Part shown: positions 3,440 to 43,709 of the stretch, piece after piece
Layout: every line of letters starts with the position of its first letter
How positions within the stretch are numbered: position 1 is the first letter of the stretch
Notes under the pieces: generated by a model
The model's database searches: none
What the model saw: only the letters and a program-made list of their open reading frames with translations
What the model was told of the DNA's origin: nothing
Made by a program: the position numbers and the translations under genes
Source of the DNA: Hyphomonadaceae bacterium
Lineage (GTDB): Bacteria; Pseudomonadota; Alphaproteobacteria; Caulobacterales; Aquidulcibacteraceae
Direction: 5' to 3'
NCBI GenBank assembly: GCA_009773395.1
Contig: WRPI01000006.1
Location: 1 to 64,000 of the forward strand
DNA: 64,000 bases

Positions 3440-4428
3440 CGGATTTCGTTTCTCGTGCAACTGGCCTGAAAGGCATTAAAATTAAGTGCAATGCGGTTGG
3501 CATTTGGATCGGTCCAGGCATAAATTTGCGCGAAATCATCATTATTTTGCGACAAATACAGGGTCAATGATGGGCGGTTATTGCCGATGGGCCATTCAAC
3601 ATTGCGTAGCCGCAATCGAATGGTTTGATTGCCAAGAACGACGTTCGCACTGCCGCCTTGGTCATGCAGCGAAATCCCATTCACAACAATTGGCGCATCA
3701 TTTTGACTAACCCCGGCCCAGCAAGTGAATGCACTGGCGCGCCGCAATTTTGTGGGGCTGCCATCAATATTGCCAAAAACCCTTTGCCCTTGCGCGTCAA
3801 CCCCAATGTCCGACACTTCCCATAAATTGGCGCTTATGTCGTGACGTTCAGTGACATTTAGGTTGCGGCCATCGCCCGCAGCCAAGTGGCAAGAACCCGC
3901 CGAAGTTTCACCAAGAAATGCGTTGGCGCGGCGCTTGAATGTTAGGTCACAGCCCATAATGCGGACAAAATCCTCGGGCTTTATCGCGTCAATTGCCGTA
4001 TCAGTCGCAATCGCGGTTTTTGGATCAAAGCGCATCATCAATAGGGCTTTTTGGCTTTGTGAAGCACTTATCCCCCACACCCGAGTTTTTACAATTTCGC
4101 CACTTTCACCGCCAGCGCGATATTGAACGTAAAATGCGCGCTCGCCAAAACCCGTTGCCGCGCTCGGGCGCACTGTCACATGCAAACGCGCATGCCTTTG
4201 TGCTTCGGGCACGCCCAATTCTGGCTCAAAAAATGATTGCAGCTCACTATCCCAAGTGCCACTGATTTGCGCTGAAAAATCGGCCAAGTCTTTTGCCAAA
4301 ATATCGGCGATTAATTTGTCATTTGGCGAATTGCCAAACTCAACCCGAACTGGCTGCGGCGCTGCCACAACTGGCGCTTGCGGCGCATCAGCCAAAGCAG
4401 CAAAATAAAATAACGAAACCAGCAACAT
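3436..4428 (-). CDS. CpcT/CpeT-like (DUF1001) secreted protein
   Basis: A 330-residue protein with an N-terminal hydrophobic segment ending in an ALADAPQ-like signal cleavage region, so probably periplasmic. Residues about 35-220 follow the CpcT/CpeT layout: DLADFSAQISGTWDSELQS, then a barrel with GCDLTFKR and ETSAGSCHL, and DIGVDAQGQRVFGNIDG near the end. In cyanobacteria this family attaches bilins to phycobiliproteins; homologues in non-phototrophs such as this one have no known job. A further domain of about 100 residues follows, with one CW pair and one cysteine near the C terminus. It is the first gene of a tight operon with the phosphatidyltransferase and rusA. Confidence 0.65.
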   Translation of the reverse strand: MLLVSLFYFAALADAPQAPVVAAPQPVRVEFGNSPNDKLIADILAKDLADFSAQISGTWDSELQSFFEPELGVPEAQRHARLHVTVRPSAATGFGERAFYVQYRAGGESGEIVKTRVWGISASQSQKALLMMRFDPKTAIATDTAIDAIKPEDFVRIMGCDLTFKRRANAFLGETSAGSCHLAAGDGRNLNVTERHDISANLWEVSDIGVDAQGQRVFGNIDGSPTKLRRASAFTCWAGVSQNDAPIVVNGISLHDQGGSANVVLGNQTIRLRLRNVEWPIGNNRPSLTLYLSQNNDDFAQIYAWTDPNANRIALNFNAFQASCTRNEIR

Positions 4429-4542
4429 TTTATTTCCTCAAATTCCATTGCAGCCTGACATGCTTTGCGTAATTTGTGAAATAGGAAATTTATTGAATTT
4501 CAGTTAGAGCTACGCCCCAATTTATCTTGGCTTCACTTTCAA

Positions 4543-6765
4543 TCACCCACATTTTGAATAACCGCAATCATGGCAATTAACACAGCCTTCATTACAATGT
4601 AGTGCTGCTGCCCCACATTGTGGACATATTTTTGCGCCTAGCAAAGCGCTTCTGTGTGCTGTGGGTTCTACTGGTTTGGGGGCACTAGCAATTGGAGCCA
4701 AAGCACCCAGGTGACGCTCAAAAATGCCACCTATTGCAGCTAATAAAGACGGCACATAATGACCGCCAATCCATGCGCCACCGCGCGGATCGAAAACAGC
4801 TTTGAGTTCTTCAGCGACGAAACTAACATCGCCGCCGCGCCTTAAAACTGCCGATACCATTCTAGTCAGGCCCAAAGTCCAAGCATAATGCTCCATATTT
4901 TTGGAATTGATAAATATTTCAAATGGCCGAACTTTGCCGTCAGTTTCAATGTCATTGATGGTAACATAAACGGCGTGGGCACTGTCTGGCCATTTCACTT
5001 TATAAGTGGTCCCATGCAGATTTTCAGGGCGCGGCGCGAGAATTGGTTCGCTTGGACTTGTTTTGGGCGCGGCGGCGGCAATGCTCAAAATGGATCCCGT
5101 CACAGCATTGGGTCGATAGGTAGTCATACCTTTGCAACCTTGTTCATAACCATCAATATAAATATTTGAAAACGCAGCAAAATCAATGTCTTCGGGGCAA
5201 TTTACGGTTTTGGAAATCGAACTATCTATTTGGGTCTGAGCCGCTGCCTGCATTGCGACATGGGCTTTTGGTGGCAAGGTCTGGGCGCTTACGAATAATT
5301 CCTCGGGCGGTGGTTCGTCGCCTTTGAGTTTTTTCCAAACTTGAAAACCGTAATCTTCAACTTTTTCATCGCATAAACTGCCGTCTTGCCCGCGAACTTT
5401 GCGGTTATAGGCATAAGCGAAAACCGGCTCGATACCCGATGAGACATTGCCCGCGAGTAGAGACGTCGTTCCTGTGGGGGCAATTGAGGTCAAACAGCCA
5501 TTTCTAAGGCCATTTTGCGCAATAAGTTTGCGGGTTTGTTTATCAAGTGATTGCAAGTTTGGGCTATCGAGAATTGCTTTATCATAAAGCGGGAATGCAC
5601 CTTTTTCCGCCGCCAATTCAGCCGAAGTAATATAGGCTTCGCGTTTGATTATTCCGAGCCATTTTTTGGTAAGCTCAATGGCCGATTGCGAGCCATAAAC
5701 TGAGTTGCAAAACAACAAAGCGTCAGCCAAGCCAGTTATGCCGAGGCCGATTCGGCGTTTTGCTTTGGCTTCCAATTCTTGCTCTTTTAGCGGGTAACGC
5801 GATATATCGATTACATTATCGAGGAAACGAACCGCCGTTCTTGTAATTGCGGCAAGCTCGACCTCATCAAGCACACTTTCGGCTGTAAATGGACGTTCAA
5901 CCAATTGCGCAAGATTTATTGATCCGAGCAAACACGCGCCATAAGGCGGCAACATTTGTTCGCCGCACGGGTTGCTGGCTATGATTTTTTCGCTATATGA
6001 GAGATTATTATTCTGATTGACGCGATCGATAAAAATGACACCGGGTTCGGCATTGTCATAATTGGCTTGCATCAATTTGTCCCAAAGCCCGCGAGCAGAA
6101 ACCCTGCGGTAAACGTCACCGCCGAATTTTAGTGGCCATTGTTCGTCATTGGCGCGAGCGGCCATAAAATCATCGCTCACGAGAACGGATAAATTGAAAT
6201 TGCGCAATGAAGTGGCGTTGGCTTTTGCTTCGATAAACGCCTCTATATCCGGGTGACTAATACGCAAACAAGCCATCATCGCGCCCCGCCTTTGTCCGGC
6301 CGCCATTATGGTCCCGCACATTGCATCCCAAGAGTGCATGAAGCTTATTGGGCCTGAAGCTTTAGCTCCAATGCCAACAACCGGCGCGCCATTGGGCCTG
6401 ATTGTCGAAAAGTCCATGCCAACTCCGCCACCTTGTTGCATGGTGATTGCGGCTTCGCGCAAATGTTCAAAAATTCCGTTTAGATTATCTGGAATCACGC
6501 CCATGACAAAACAATTGAACAAAGTTACCGCGCGACTTGTGCCGGCCCCCGCCAAGATTCTACCAGCGGGGATAAAGCGGAAATCTTGCAATGCGTCGAA
6601 ATAAGTTTGCGCCCACTGGCTACGAATTTGCTCGGGTTCGTTTTGCGCAATTGCATTTGCCACTCGGCGCCAAGTTGCGGCAATATTTTCATCGCCTTCG
6701 CCAATTTGTGGGGTGAATTTATATTTGTCGTTCCAGATTTGCGCCGCCAGAGTATTTTCAACCAT
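4543..6765 (-). CDS. nrdJ: Adenosylcobalamin-dependent ribonucleotide reductase (class II)
   Basis: A 740-residue class II ribonucleotide reductase, which makes deoxyribonucleotides using a B12-derived radical and so works with or without oxygen. Visible signatures are the active-site loop NPCGEQMLPPYGACLLGSIN, the second loop NGCLTSIAPTGTTSLL, a TSCPD-type region around residues 590-680 and a C-terminal zinc/thiol tail with CPQCG and CVNCHDCGYSKCG, which recycles the active-site disulfide. I start it at ATG 6765, not the longer frame at 6801, because AAGGGA lies 7 nt before it and the longer form would translate through two NrdR boxes. No class I genes are in the window. Confidence 0.95.
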   Translation of the reverse strand: MVENTLAAQIWNDKYKFTPQIGEGDENIAATWRRVANAIAQNEPEQIRSQWAQTYFDALQDFRFIPAGRILAGAGTSRAVTLFNCFVMGVIPDNLNGIFEHLREAAITMQQGGGVGMDFSTIRPNGAPVVGIGAKASGPISFMHSWDAMCGTIMAAGQRRGAMMACLRISHPDIEAFIEAKANATSLRNFNLSVLVSDDFMAARANDEQWPLKFGGDVYRRVSARGLWDKLMQANYDNAEPGVIFIDRVNQNNNLSYSEKIIASNPCGEQMLPPYGACLLGSINLAQLVERPFTAESVLDEVELAAITRTAVRFLDNVIDISRYPLKEQELEAKAKRRIGLGITGLADALLFCNSVYGSQSAIELTKKWLGIIKREAYITSAELAAEKGAFPLYDKAILDSPNLQSLDKQTRKLIAQNGLRNGCLTSIAPTGTTSLLAGNVSSGIEPVFAYAYNRKVRGQDGSLCDEKVEDYGFQVWKKLKGDEPPPEELFVSAQTLPPKAHVAMQAAAQTQIDSSISKTVNCPEDIDFAAFSNIYIDGYEQGCKGMTTYRPNAVTGSILSIAAAAPKTSPSEPILAPRPENLHGTTYKVKWPDSAHAVYVTINDIETDGKVRPFEIFINSKNMEHYAWTLGLTRMVSAVLRRGGDVSFVAEELKAVFDPRGGAWIGGHYVPSLLAAIGGIFERHLGALAPIASAPKPVEPTAHRSALLGAKICPQCGAAALHCNEGCVNCHDCGYSKCG

Positions 6766-6766
6766 A

Positions 6767-6813
6767 ACACTATCCCTTGTGTGATTATTTCCACGAACCA
6801 CAACATATAGTGT
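6767..6813 (-). promoter_or_regulatory. Tandem NrdR boxes upstream of nrdJ
   Basis: Two 16-bp sites match the NrdR consensus (acaCwAtATaTwGtGt). On the minus strand the distal one is ACACTATATGTTGTGG (6813-6798, 14 of 16) and the proximal one ACACAAGGGATAGTGT (6782-6767, 13 of 16). They are 15 bp apart, so their centres are 31 bp or about three helical turns apart, the spacing known for cooperative NrdR binding. The proximal box overlaps the ribosome-binding site and ends 1 bp before the start codon. NrdR is the ATP/dATP-sensing repressor of ribonucleotide reductase genes. Confidence 0.85.
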
Positions 6814-7002
6814 TATTTCTTTAATAAATGCTTGATAAAATTGCTGTGGTATAATGCCGCAGTCAGTGGCTGGGAAAACCCTCTGCTTTCAAGACAAAAC
6901 TCTAAATGCGAAAATAATCCCATTTATTTTGCCATTGAAATCATTATCATATAGGCTGCCCAAAAAGCAGGAATCAAAAAATATATCAAAAGGGAAATCA
7001 TC

Positions 7003-8181
7003 ATGCGTGAAGCCGTAATCGTATCCACCGCCCGTAGTGCTATTGGCAGAGCCTATCGTGGCGCTTTGAACAACACCCCTTCGCCAACTTTAGCTGCACA
7101 CGCAATCAGCAATGCTGTTTCGCGCGCTGGAATTGATAAAGCACTTATTGATGATTGCATTATGGGTGCCGCTTTGCAGCAAGGCTATCAAAGCCCAAAT
7201 ATCGGGCGTTTATCGGCATTGCGCGCAGGTTTGCCGCATGAAGTTTCGGGCATGTCAATTGATCGCCAATGCGCTTCGGGCCTTATGGCAATTGCCACGG
7301 CTTCGAAACAAATAGTGATTGACCGTATGGATATTATTGTCGCGGGCGGCGTTGAATCAGTTTCGATGGTGCAAACCCCGCAAATGCGCGTAAATGCCGA
7401 TGCTTCGCTGATTGCAATGGTTCCCAATGTTTATATGGCAATGCTCGATACTGCCGAAGTGGTGGCCAAGCGCTATAATATTAGCCGCGATGCACAGGAC
7501 GAATATGCACTACGCTCACAGCAGCGCACTGCCAAAGCCCAAGCTGATGGTCTTTTTGATGCCGAAATCGTCCCAATTACCACCAAAATGAATGTGACTG
7601 ATAAAGCGACAGGCGCGACTACGGAACATGAAGTGACGCTTTCCAAAGACGAAGGCAATCGCCCTGATACTTCGGCCGAGGGTCTTGCTTCTTTGCAGCC
7701 AGTGCGTGGGCCTAACGCTTGTGTAACTGCGGGCAATGCGAGCCAGCTTTCAGACGGCGCTTCGGCGTGCGTAATTATGGAGCGCACCTTGGCCGAAAAA
7801 GCTGGTCTTGCACCGATGGGCAAATTATTGGGCATGGCGGTTGCCGGCACTAACCCCGATGAAATGGGAATTGGGCCAGTATTTGCAATTCCAAAATTAT
7901 TATCGCGCTTTGGCCTTGAAATGAAAGACATTGGCATATGGGAATTAAATGAGGCTTTTGCCGTGCAGGTTTTATATTGCCGCGATAAATTGGGCATTCC
8001 AGACGAGCTTTTGAATGTAAACGGCGGCGGGATTTCAATTGGCCACCCCTATGGCATGACTGGTGCACGCCTTGCTGGGCATGTACTTATCGAAGGCAAG
8101 CGTCGCGGCGCAAAATACGGCATTGTAACAATGTGCGTCGGCGGCGGCATGGGTGCTGCGGGCCTATTTGAAATCTTCTAG
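7003..8181 (+). CDS. Acetyl-CoA C-acyltransferase (thiolase)
   Basis: A 392-residue thiolase that condenses or cleaves acyl-CoAs with acetyl-CoA, in beta-oxidation or acetoacetyl-CoA formation. The nucleophilic cysteine is at about residue 90 in [10 protein letters not shown]; the catalytic histidine is in [11 protein letters not shown] and the second cysteine in [11 protein letters not shown] near the end, all in the usual order. Length is normal. The start has AAAGGGAAATC upstream. It stands alone, divergent from nrdJ. Beta-oxidation (FadA-like) versus PhaA-like use cannot be decided. The TAG stop begins the 12-mer TAGGTCATGTTG, also found at another stop codon at 22292. Confidence 0.93.
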
Positions 8182-41023: not shown

Positions 41024-41062
41024 GATCAGTTTGATCGATTGACGCGCTTTCGTGATCCGATC
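41024..41062. promoter_or_regulatory. Cluster of four GATC sites before the dpnI operon
   Basis: GATC starts at 41024, 41033, 41054 and 41059, four copies in 39 bp, ending 13 bp before the first start codon of the cassette. GATC is the sequence whose adenine-methylated form DpnI cuts. The sites are seen directly; a regulatory role, such as sensing the methylation state, is inference. Confidence 0.55.
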
Positions 41063-41075
41063 TAAGGTTGTATTT

Positions 41076-41279
41076 ATGAAGCAATCGATAAATCAAATCC
41101 CACGAAAGGCAATCCAACGTATCATAGACTATATGTGGGATGATGAATTGAAACATTATTTGGAATGCTTCGATGAGGCGGCGACTGACATTCACGGTCA
41201 CATTTTCTTTGACTTGGAAACGGTCAATAATTGGCTTAATGATAAACAACCAACAATCGACAGAAAATCGGGAGAATGA
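41076..41279 (+). CDS. Small protein upstream of the DpnI gene, function unknown
   Basis: A 67-residue protein (begins MKQSINQIPRKAIQRIIDYM; the middle has WDDELKHYLECFDEAATDIH and then GHIFFDLETVNNWLND). It looks soluble and helical, and I recognise no named domain. AAGG is 8 nt before the ATG. The stop is 1 nt before the TTG start of the DpnI-like gene and its 3' end contains that gene's ribosome-binding site, so the two are translationally coupled. A regulator or inhibitor of the nuclease is a plausible but unproven role. Confidence 0.65.
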   Translation: MKQSINQIPRKAIQRIIDYMWDDELKHYLECFDEAATDIHGHIFFDLETVNNWLNDKQPTIDRKSGE

Positions 41280-41280
41280 C

Positions 41281-42054
41281 TTGGTATCAATTACAAGCAA
41301 TTCGAGCACATTTGGCCTTACTAGCGGTTCGCAAAAAGCGCGCGTAATTACCGAGGGTTTCGTTGCAGGATATGGCTTTTGTCCAGCCTGTGGCGCCAGC
41401 CTAAAACAAGCACCAGCAAATTCCAAAGCCTTGGATTTTCTTTGTCGAGCGTGTGATGAAGGTTTTGAGTTGAAATCCAAATCATCAAAAATTGGCTCGA
41501 AAATAGTCAATGGAGCGCATGATTCACTAATGAATCGCGTAATGGGATTACACAATCCCAATCTGTATTTGATGCAATATAATATGCGTGAAATGACAGT
41601 TCAAAATCTGTTGGTTATTCCACGCTATTTTTTTACGCCAAATCTAATCGAAAAACGAAAAGCACTTAGCGCAACAGCAAGGCGCGCAGGCTGGGTTGGT
41701 TGCAATATTTTGGTTGGGCAAGTGCCGCAATTGGGGCGCATTCATTACATCAAAGACGAAATCGAAATTAAGCCCGAAGTCGTTTTGAAAGAATGGCAAG
41801 CGACTACTTTTCTGCAAAACAGTGCAAACATTGAAGGTCGTGGTTGGTTGCTTGAAACATTAAATTGCATTGAGAAAATCCAAAAAGATAATTTCACGCT
41901 CGATGAAATCTATGCATTCAAACCATACCTTCAGCAAGCTCACCCCAATAATAACAACATCGAAGCAAAACTGCGGCAACAATTGCAATTTCTTAGAGAC
42001 AAAGATGTAATCGAGTTCCTGCGGCCTGGACACTATCGAAAGAAGGCAAAATAA
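41281..42054 (+). CDS. dpnI: DpnI-type methyl-directed restriction endonuclease
   Basis: A 257-residue close homologue of pneumococcal DpnI (254 residues), which cuts GATC only when the adenine is methylated. Zinc cysteines C34, C37, C55 and C58 are in FCPACGAS and LCRACDE; the nuclease residues D52, E63 and K65 are in ALDFLCRACDEGFELKSK. TARRAGWVGCNI is conserved, and the C-terminal winged helix, which also reads the methylated site, has RQQLQFLRDKDVIEF. I chose TTG 41281: GGGAGAA is just upstream, and it places 17 residues before QKAR exactly as in DpnI. It needs a host without Dam methylation. Confidence 0.93.
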   Translation: MVSITSNSSTFGLTSGSQKARVITEGFVAGYGFCPACGASLKQAPANSKALDFLCRACDEGFELKSKSSKIGSKIVNGAHDSLMNRVMGLHNPNLYLMQYNMREMTVQNLLVIPRYFFTPNLIEKRKALSATARRAGWVGCNILVGQVPQLGRIHYIKDEIEIKPEVVLKEWQATTFLQNSANIEGRGWLLETLNCIEKIQKDNFTLDEIYAFKPYLQQAHPNNNNIEAKLRQQLQFLRDKDVIEFLRPGHYRKKAK

Positions 42055-42495
42055 ATGGCACATCATCTCGTAATCGAACTTCTGGAAAATATCGAATTAG
42101 CTAGAGAAATGGTGCAAGCAAATTACGATGAACTTGAAGACCCCGAATTTGAACTTGGCTACCTTGCAGGTTTGGAAGCAATAAGTGACGAATTGGATAG
42201 CAACAATCCTTTCTTCAAATTTCGTCAATTTGCCAAGTCACATTGTGAATTCGTATTTTCTCTTGAAAAAGGAATCATTGATGGCAAAAACGATAATGCT
42301 AAAGATATGCGCAAATGGGCATTTCCTACTGCCAATCGAATTGTTGATGAACTGCCTTCAGTTGAAAATGGCTCGGAAGAACAAACTCAATTACTGGCGG
42401 CAATCCAAAAACTCCTATTCCACAACCCCTCTTTCGCCAATGCCTTCATTGGCACTGGAGTTATTGAGGCCAGCTATTTTGATGAGTTGAGTTAA
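42055..42495 (+). CDS. Hypothetical protein downstream of the DpnI gene
   Basis: A 146-residue acidic, probably helical and soluble protein (MAHHLVIELLENIELAREMV, then YDELEDPEFELGYLAGLEAI) with no family I can name. Its ATG follows the DpnI-gene TAA with no spacer, so it is cotranslated, and it is the last gene of the three-gene cassette. In Streptococcus dpnI is also followed by a second gene (dpnD), but this protein shows no resemblance I can see to it. Confidence 0.7.
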   Translation: MAHHLVIELLENIELAREMVQANYDELEDPEFELGYLAGLEAISDELDSNNPFFKFRQFAKSHCEFVFSLEKGIIDGKNDNAKDMRKWAFPTANRIVDELPSVENGSEEQTQLLAAIQKLLFHNPSFANAFIGTGVIEASYFDELS

Positions 42496-42537
42496 GCACA
42501 ATAAATCAAAGTTGCGTGGAATGCAGCATTTTCACAC

Positions 42538-42658
42538 TTCAGTCGCGCATTCGCGCGCCAGCTTCCGTCAAGGGAAGTATCCGCGATAATAAAATTGCCA
42601 ATTGCCCGACCGTTTTCACCCTTCACCGCTTCGCGGAGCTTCCCTCAAGGGAAGCACA
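42538..42658. repeat. Degenerate fragments of the 141-bp repeat unit
   Basis: Two pieces matching only the right-hand end of the 141-bp unit: TCAGTCGCGCATTCGCGCGC plus CAGCTTCCGTCAAGGGAAG (42540-42577), and ACCGTTTTCACCCTTCACCG up to CTTCCCTCAAGGGAAGCAC (42609-42657). They lie between the dpnI cassette and the first complete unit and look like decayed or truncated copies. Confidence 0.7.
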
Positions 42659-42680
42659 TATGGGACAGCGATATTAAGTC

Positions 42681-42821
42681 CTTCCCTCGAGGGAAGGTGG
42701 CGCGGCGAAGCCGTGACGGAAGGGTGACTGGTGCCGCGATAGCTAAGATTGCTGTTTGCCTTACCGTTTTCACCTTGTCGTCGCGCATTCGCGCGCCAGC
42801 TTCCCTCAAGGGAAGCACTTA
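42681..42821. repeat. 141-bp palindrome-ended repeat, unit A
   Basis: Starts CTTCCCTCGAGGGAAGGTGG, contains CGGCGAAGCCGTGACGGAAG and ACCGTTTTCACCTTGTCGTC, and ends CTTCCCTCAAGGGAAG-CACTTA. Each end is a 16-bp palindrome. It ends 2 bp before the stop codon of the DUF559 gene. Confidence 0.92.
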
Positions 42822-42823
42822 TT

Positions 42824-43198
42824 TTATTTAGGGAAATAGTTTGCTCTGCTTGCGGGCTTAAGTTTCGATTTTAATTGTTCATCGACGGAGAATTGAATGC
42901 TGGTGAGAACATCATCCAACGACCATTGGATTTGATGGTTGGTAAATCGCAAAATCTGCCAACCTTGGGAGTTAAGCCATTTATCTCGAAAATAATCACG
43001 ATTATCATAGGTGTGGTGTTCACCATCGGCTTCAATTATTAGCCACGCCTTGCGACAAGCAAAATCGGCAATATAATTCCCAATTGGTTCTTGGCGATGA
43101 AATCTAACCCCAAATCCACTGCGGCGTAACTTTCCCCATAGCCGCAATTCCCACTGCGTCATATTTCTGCGAAGCTGCTTTGCAAGACTTAAAGACAT
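42824..43198 (-). CDS. DUF559 (Vsr-like fold) endonuclease-domain protein
   Basis: A 124-residue protein of the DUF559 family, related to very-short-patch and restriction-type nucleases. MTQWELRLWGKLRRSGFGVR holds the conserved E of the fold, FHRQEPIGNYIADFACRKAW the central D, and LIIEADGEHHTYDNRDYFRD the E-x-DG-x-H core. All expected acidic residues are present, so it may be active; its substrate is unknown. It is the only gene among three copies of a 141-bp repeat, one ending 2 bp past its stop and two lying upstream of its start. DUF559 genes are often found in such repeats in alphaproteobacteria. Confidence 0.88.
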   Translation of the reverse strand: MSLSLAKQLRRNMTQWELRLWGKLRRSGFGVRFHRQEPIGNYIADFACRKAWLIIEADGEHHTYDNRDYFRDKWLNSQGWQILRFTNHQIQWSLDDVLTSIQFSVDEQLKSKLKPASRANYFPK

Positions 43199-43246
43199 AA
43201 TTGTTCACTATTCGTTCCTGTCTCGTAAGTCAAGTGAAATTAAGTC

Positions 43247-43387
43247 CCTCCCTCGAGGGAAGGAGGCGCGGCGAAGCCGTGACGGAAGGGTGGTCGGTGC
43301 CGCGATAACCGAGATTGCTTTTCGCGCCACCGTTTTCACCCTTCAGTCGCGCATTCGTGCGCCAGCTTCCCTCGAGGGAAGCACTTA
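43247..43387. repeat. 141-bp palindrome-ended repeat, unit B
   Basis: Same length and structure as unit A: CCTCCCTCGAGGGAAGG at the left, CGGCGAAGCCGTGACGGAAG inside, CTTCCCTCGAGGGAAGCACT at the right. It begins 48 bp upstream of the DUF559 start codon and is preceded by ATTAAGTC, as is unit A. Confidence 0.92.
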
Positions 43388-43407
43388 GGTGTAGTTAAGG
43401 TTATGTC

Positions 43408-43548
43408 CTTCCCTCGAGGGAAGGTGGCGCGGCGAAGCCGTGACGGAAGGGTGACTGGTGCCGCGATTGCAGAGATTGCCGTTTGCCCAACCGTTTTCAC
43501 CTTGTCGTCGCGCATTCGCGCGCCAGCTTCCCTCGAGGGAAGCACTTA
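43408..43548. repeat. 141-bp palindrome-ended repeat, unit C
   Basis: Third full unit, in the same orientation as A and B and 20 bp after B. Left end CTTCCCTCGAGGGAAGG, right end CTTCCCTCGAGGGAAG-CACTTA. From here to the amidohydrolase stop (43710) there is no gene; only a weak stem (GGCAAAA with TTTTGCC, 43676-43707) is visible. Confidence 0.92.
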
Positions 43549-43709
43549 GCGTTAGTGAAAACGCTATCCCACCCTTCATGTGGTGGCATATAATCGCGGC
43601 TCACTGAACAATTAACAAAGAAAGACCGCACAAAAACTACTAACTTCTCATAACATTTTGGCCAGTTTACCCACAGGCAAAATGATATGGTTTGATATTG
43701 TTTTGCCCC

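Follow-up and report, generated by a model that had tools for sequence, protein, structure and literature searches.

A DpnI cassette with two small acidic partner proteins and an upstream GATC cluster in a Hyphomonadaceae bacterium

The window analyzed here, a 64,000-nucleotide stretch of DNA from a Hyphomonadaceae bacterium, carries a compact locus in which a gene for a DpnI-family endonuclease is coupled to two small genes, p1 upstream and p3 downstream, and is preceded by a cluster of GATC sites. We judge the case evenly balanced that this locus represents a methyl-directed restriction cassette whose two acidic proteins are modulators and whose promoter is sensitive to GATC methylation. The features on which this reading draws are the following (positions in the window; + is the forward strand).

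41024 to 41062, no strand: cluster of four GATC sites (41024, 41033, 41054, 41059), ending 13 bp before p1
41076 to 41279, +: p1, 67 aa from ATG, pI 5.0, two helices predicted, member of a dpnI-linked family of small proteins
41281 to 42054, +: dpnI, 257 aa from TTG, pI 9.4, DpnI-family (Gm6ATC-dependent) PD-(D/E)XK endonuclease
41317 to 41820, +: DpnI nuclease domain, with zinc cysteines and D52/E63/K65
41836 to 42042, +: DpnI_C winged-helix domain (Pfam), the m6A reader in the DpnI family
42055 to 42495, +: p3, 146 aa, pI 4.4, mostly helical in a low-confidence model
42304 to 42492, +: C-terminal part of p3, common to a 70-aa protein of genome G352

In the mechanism that we propose, a mobile cassette would provide a DpnI that cuts double-stranded Gm6ATC DNA, for example DNA of phages or plasmids that come from Dam-positive cells, and in a host presumably devoid of GATC methylation no protecting methylase would be needed. 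The acidic p1 and p3 proteins may bind the basic DpnI and adjust how active or abundant it is, with p3 more likely acting via the winged-helix reader and p1 via the nuclease or the cassette generally. The GATC cluster would make the operon respond to GATC methylation, the unmethylated state being on; once methylated, the cluster could itself be bound or cut by DpnI, which would turn the cassette off. That the cassette senses the very mark it attacks, with DpnI or its winged helix switching off or destroying its own operon and the two acidic proteins tuning the nuclease, is a speculative and on balance unlikely elaboration; the same caution applies to the part of this reading in which one acidic protein would follow GATC restriction nucleases and the other the m6A-reading winged helix.

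The identity of the middle gene is firm, and its sequence makes it highly probable that it encodes an intact DpnI-family nuclease, an enzyme family whose namesake DpnI is a standard laboratory reagent. Both Pfam domains exceed their cut-offs (DpnI, PF06044, 6.6e-60, 202.3 bits versus 26.7; DpnI_C, PF17726, 3.2e-31, 107.8 bits versus 23), the protein matches PDB DpnI entries 4esj and 4kyw at 6e-64 over nearly full length and the PADLOC type II methyl-directed restriction enzyme at 5.8e-81, and D52, E63, and K65 together with C34, C37, C55, and C58 are invariant across seven aligned DpnI proteins. With 17 residues before QKAR as well, this bears out the description of a convincing DpnI given in the first-pass annotation. 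That annotation also took the coupling of the three reading frames to suggest a functional unit, and both the coupling and the persistence of a three-gene unit are supported: with the TTG start of dpnI, the frames of 67, 257, and 146 aa are separated by gaps of 1 nt (p1 to dpnI) and 0 nt (dpnI to p3), and the order p1-dpnI-p3 recurs at another chromosomal site in a second genome. The dpnI frame extends open upstream of the TTG at 41281, which is preceded by a Shine-Dalgarno-like GGGAGAA, and the p1 frame has an alternative GTG start at 41052 that would give 75 aa.

The genome bearing the window (G000; 2.63 Mb, 99.86% complete) has a single dpnI. The second genome, G002 (Hyphomonadaceae bacterium UBA1933, same genus; locus L012, identical to L020), carries the three genes in identical order at a different site, between rho and a ligT-like gene, whereas the window cassette is flanked by a divergent ccoG and intergenic repeats; in the four other genomes of the genus the upstream neighbor of ccoG is a different gene, ccoP-like in G002 and G004 and gpsA-like in G001 and G003 (all of these names assigned by eye). 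The identical order at this second site indicates that p1, dpnI, and p3 persist as a unit. Between the two cassettes, amino acid identity is 61% for DpnI, 42% for p3, and 22-26% for p1, and third codon positions are the most divergent in all three genes. dpnI itself occurs in 10 of 101 related genomes and in 5 of 385 genomes of the class (one of the five under the cut-off), the window genome being counted in both. In a midpoint-rooted tree of 81 DpnI proteins, the window and G002 sequences form a 100/100 clade nested in a set (96/90) of 24 rows drawn from Bacteroidota, Chloroflexota, and other groups. The 22 remaining alphaproteobacterial rows stand elsewhere, together making up one side of a 99/98 branch. 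This placement, together with the differing sites, suggests that the cassette was probably acquired from outside the lineage and moved as one unit. Pattern scans of viral contigs gave no match for dpnI, p1, p3, or the p3 relative, and p1, p3, and the p3 relative had none in phage or plasmid records, where dpnI yielded one partial phage match and two plasmid records, both 2.17-Mb Neisseria gonorrhoeae records. The wider defence island that had been suggested was not recognized, the neighbors seen by eye being ccoG and the repeats. Downstream of the cassette (42524-43550), the intergenic repeat array comprises a 148-nt repeat present three times and CTTCCCTCRAGGGAAG palindromes.

The region of the GATC cluster is probably the promoter of the cassette; a search for a sigma-70 consensus before p1 found none. 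Its four GATC sites fall within 39 bp; nowhere else in the 64-kb window do three occur within 60 bp. The window is otherwise poor in GATC, with 97 sites against ~248 by base composition (~39% of expectation); GATC is also scarce at sister loci, dpnI-free ones included. GTAC is nearly absent from the window (4 in 64 kb). Searching for GATC-N0-22-GATC-N0-22-GATC, we found the pattern at 6 separate places in G000 and at 2 in G002, and in each genome the triple at the cassette is the only intergenic one, the other six lying inside open reading frames. The sites of the two cassette triples start 17 to 57 bp before the p1 start, and the chance of a triple in a given 100 bp is 2.3e-4 in G000 and 7.4e-5 in G002; since the cluster was noticed first in the window, only G002 tests it independently (chance about 7e-5). 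Site spacings are 9, 21, and 5 in the window and 13 and 13 in G002, and the two upstream regions align poorly, with 69 of 215 columns invariant and one GATC in register; these differences speak for selection over simple inheritance.

The strongest rival view of this region is that the cluster serves as an operator for an unlinked regulator, or arose by chance, and has nothing to do with methylation, and we regard this as a real possibility, on the improbable side of even. It is favored by the dyad TGATCAA-AATAC-TTGATCA that two of the G002 sites form, and by a control pattern built on CTAG, which occurs at 0 places in G000 and at 4 in G002, so that triples of such rarity do occur. It is also favored by the behavior of dpnI loci at large, for which a general GATC enrichment before dpnI was rejected. 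Upstream of 74 dpnI loci, G002 included (87 entries minus 12 failing the ORF filter, the window among them, minus one duplicate), there is no overall excess, one 50-bp bin holding 5.4 GATC per kb versus a background of 3.5; 14 other p1 loci are not enriched (4 sites versus 5.3 expected); and among ten alphaproteobacterial upstream regions, which include one genome twice, a close triple besides those of the window and G002 was found only in G051 (L013), with P 0.06 by count. Against it, GATC is the only core common to the seven sites, the spacings differ, and in each of two genomes the cassette has the sole intergenic triple; nor would an FNR/FixK box serving the divergent ccoG account for G002, where rho is the divergent gene (by eye). 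Within the genes themselves, 75 dpnI genes contain 104 GATC against 139.5 expected from synonymous shuffles; this ratio of 0.75 is not a special avoidance, because control genes give 0.85 and GTAC in dpnI gives 0.58.

For p1, the role of control protein proposed earlier is doubtful, given a short acidic protein modeled as two helices plus a short third and the lack of any helix-turn-helix family in Pfam or NCBIfam or of any significant PHROG. It has no Pfam match at E 10 and none in NCBIfam or PADLOC, its best PHROG (excisionase, E 0.17) is insignificant, and comparison of its fold with the PDB gave two matches, the best at a meaningless E 8.4. Synonymous divergence between the window and G002 copies is saturated, so the coding status of p1 rests mainly on homology. 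An iterated HMM applied to 7,863 ORFs of 93 loci retrieved 7 p1 proteins, two of them seeds, from Pseudomonadota, Omnitrophota, Firestonebacteria, and Campylobacterota, all 7 adjoining dpnI either up- or downstream; as nearly all of the 93 loci had been fetched for dpnI, this shows adjacency and not exclusiveness. Among 385 alphaproteobacterial genomes p1 was represented only by the window's copy, G002 being outside that sample's matches, and among 49 dpnI-bearing genomes by 5, all at loci already in the model, with the divergent L033 copy missed. An independent set of 364 genomes of another phylum gave 22 genomes matching at E 0.01 or better; after removal of two genomes already represented in the model and of four weaker hits (E 0.002-0.006; three lay in frames of at least 404 codons, one in a frame of 110), 17 new matches (E 1e-6 or better) in 16 genomes were retained. 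The co-occurrence with dpnI that the first-pass annotation had proposed to look for is seen here, since dpnI lies within 1.5 kb of p1 in 12 of the 17 (11 genomes; as shorter ORFs in L141 and L144), and p1, judged by its gene neighborhoods, is a dpnI partner beyond the Hyphomonadaceae lineage. The remaining five (L139, L140, L146, L149, L150) are not near dpnI. In L150 (1495-3155), a p1-like gene lies 16 bp behind a MutH-domain nuclease gene that is itself preceded by an N6_N4 methylase, an arrangement that may be an ordinary GATC restriction-modification system, and in L139 p1 lies 141 bp from a weak, under-cut-off PD-(D/E)XK match; no restriction nuclease was recognized by eye near p1 in L140, L146, and L149. 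On the DpnI tree, the 7 rows with p1 require 6 changes, a number as low being reached in 148 of 500 shuffles, and the presence of p1 on different branches suggests repeated gain or loss.

The downstream gene p3 is rarer and is known from three genomes. It has no Pfam match at E 10, none in NCBIfam or PADLOC, and insignificant PHROG matches, and its structural model has a pLDDT of 54; dN of 0.59 and dS of 1.38 between the window and G002 give it the appearance of a selected coding gene. p3 was found in 2 of 299 relatives, both times at dpnI, and in 3 of 385 genomes of the class, namely the window genome, G352 (E 2.8e-9), and G330, which was dropped as a chance match (E 0.008, in a 388-codon frame). 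The G352 relative is a 70-aa protein with its own Shine-Dalgarno-like AGGAG that aligns to the C terminus of p3 (IGT..IE..YF..L); its reading frame begins within a DpnI_C-HNH nuclease gene, overlapping the 3' end by 25 nt, both domains of that nuclease being over cut-off (DpnI_C 4.4e-13, HNH 1.1e-4). The expected co-occurrence of p3 with dpnI was thus found in G002, and its short relative stands beside a nuclease with the same reader domain; since this sole other convincing relative overlaps a winged-helix HNH gene, p3 may follow the m6A-reading winged helix, on a single case. Compared with plasmids, the winged-helix HNH protein matched 26 records, mostly through its HNH part. Direct comparison of p1 with p3 revealed no homology, nor was either found to be homologous to the ~150-aa dpnI neighbors of Patescibacteria and Sulfurimonas.

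Another way of reading the two partners is as immunity proteins that shield a methylated cell from DpnI in the manner of a toxin-antitoxin pair, which we consider unlikely. The charges would be complementary (DpnI pI 9.4 versus 5.0 for p1 and 4.4 for p3), and the relative of p3 follows another nuclease that also carries the winged-helix reader. An antidote would be of use where the host meets its own methylated DNA, and in this 99.86%-complete genome a search covering two families, D12 and N6_N4, found one CcrM-like enzyme and one D12 methylase. The latter (L102, on the 11.1-kb contig C5) lies beside phage portal and terminase genes (by eye), reaches 86.3 bits versus the Dam-subfamily cut-off of 114.85, and matches the phage methyltransferase phrog_56 at 2.5e-77; where DpnM has FNVPYGR and Dam has FNVPFGR, it aligns with FAAPAGR. 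The frame of this segment is thus preserved, and the enzyme might act on GATC. Contig C5 also shows P2-like phage capsid and terminase genes (by eye). If this methylase marked GATC on induction, DpnI would meet methylated DNA in its own host, and modulators or a methylation-sensitive promoter would be useful. The apparently intact DpnM-like methylase directly before dpnI and a small partner in L045 also favors immunity, whereas an unmethylated host needs no antidote and no antitoxin family match was found in Pfam, NCBIfam, PHROGs, or PADLOC.

Across several phyla, short adenine-methylase pieces, DpnA-like N6_N4 or DpnM-like D12, directly precede dpnI (L033, L034, L042, L059, L069, and L099 by BLAST; further L027, L074, and L077, and L032, L060, L061, and L095), as though a GATC restriction-modification cassette had given way to dpnI. 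In L045, from a Flavobacterium MAG, the DpnM-like D12 gene upstream of dpnI is apparently intact and a DpnA-like methylase follows downstream (3958-4959 and 6558-7292), a conflict for which we have no explanation. In two Lachnospiraceae loci (L071, 4036-4959; L096, 4037-4966), dpnI is coupled to a methylase-like gene of ~308 codons.

It could also be that DpnI stands alone and that p1 and p3 are passenger genes, which seems rather improbable to us. Most dpnI loci examined lack both genes, small neighbors vary between lineages, and pre-purified gonococcal Drg cut GmeATC DNA according to the accessible part of the report (PMC4269198). On the other side, the gaps are 1 and 0 nt with identical order at two sites, and p1 recurs beside dpnI in several phyla. 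Small partners are moreover widespread: from 87 dpnI loci, 83 had a usable ORF and 82 were distinct, and in 51 of these 82 a small neighbor on the same strand belongs to one of five recurring groups, as follows.

Neighbor group of 60-163 aa: 15 rows
Acidic protein with paired CxxC motifs: 14 rows
p1/DpnD group: 9 rows, L067 joined weakly
Neighbor group of 67-76 aa: 8 rows
Alphaproteobacterial group, mostly 72 aa: 6 rows, 5 genomes

Net charge is negative in 47 of the 52 rows, the basic exceptions being p1 of L052 and L058, L067, and a separate Elusimicrobia pair. L142 and L143 combine p1 with a second small gene that, by eye, resembles another of these groups, and so share the three-part plan of the window cassette. 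The least probable alternative, that p1 and p3 activate DpnI or load it, for instance onto incoming DNA, and that restriction depends on them, would fit the tight linkage and recurrence of the partners and the presence of p1 beside other nucleases (L150, L139), but purified pneumococcal DpnI is active on its own and acidic partners of DNA-binding proteins are generally expected to inhibit more often than to load.

To our knowledge, no modulators of DpnI-type enzymes have been known, so p1 and p3, if they are modulators, would be the first and could offer on/off tools for m6A-dependent nucleases. A promoter sensitive to GATC methylation would suggest how the cassette spares a host that gains a Dam-like methylase, and if the sensing reading is true, methyl-directed restriction would have its own feedback and modulator proteins. 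Searches of the open-access literature, as far as its text was accessible, found no described role for the small genes beside dpnI.

Several known systems resemble the window cassette in part. Like the C proteins of restriction-modification systems, p1 is small, upstream of, and coupled to a restriction gene; unlike them, it has no significant helix-turn-helix family and an acidic two-helix model. The Neisseria drg (NmeBII) nuclease is likewise of the DpnI family and an inserted cassette, described in the accessible text as replacing dam beside leuS in hosts without Dam activity (PMC4269198), whereas the window cassette lies between ccoG and intergenic repeats and has two partner genes. The winged-helix HNH enzymes, N6mA-dependent and of type IV, share the DpnI_C-type winged helix, and one of them (G352) is accompanied by the p3 relative, but they have HNH in place of PD-(D/E)XK; a survey of the methyltransferase neighbors of >1,000 winged-helix fusion genes reports no small partners in its accessible part (PMC11037411). 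A further parallel is the dpnC-dpnD pair of Streptococcus pneumoniae, in which a DpnI nuclease is co-encoded with a second protein, whereas the window has two partners, one on either side. The cassette character of the pneumococcal locus was reportedly recognized by Lacks in 1986. In the parts of the sources available, that character is described (PMC3573125), the nuclease is co-encoded with DpnD (PMC8515895), and dpnD is called a methyltransferase gene (PMC12211801), in conflict with the Pfam family name DpnD/PcfM. The earlier view that the partner set is unlike the pneumococcal pair proved half right: neither p1 nor p3 matches DpnD/PcfM (PF14207) at E 10, but PF14207 is matched by dpnI neighbors in L032 and L081, and in L032 (Sulfurovum) the p1-like stretch forms the C-terminal part of the DpnD/PcfM-domain protein beside dpnI.
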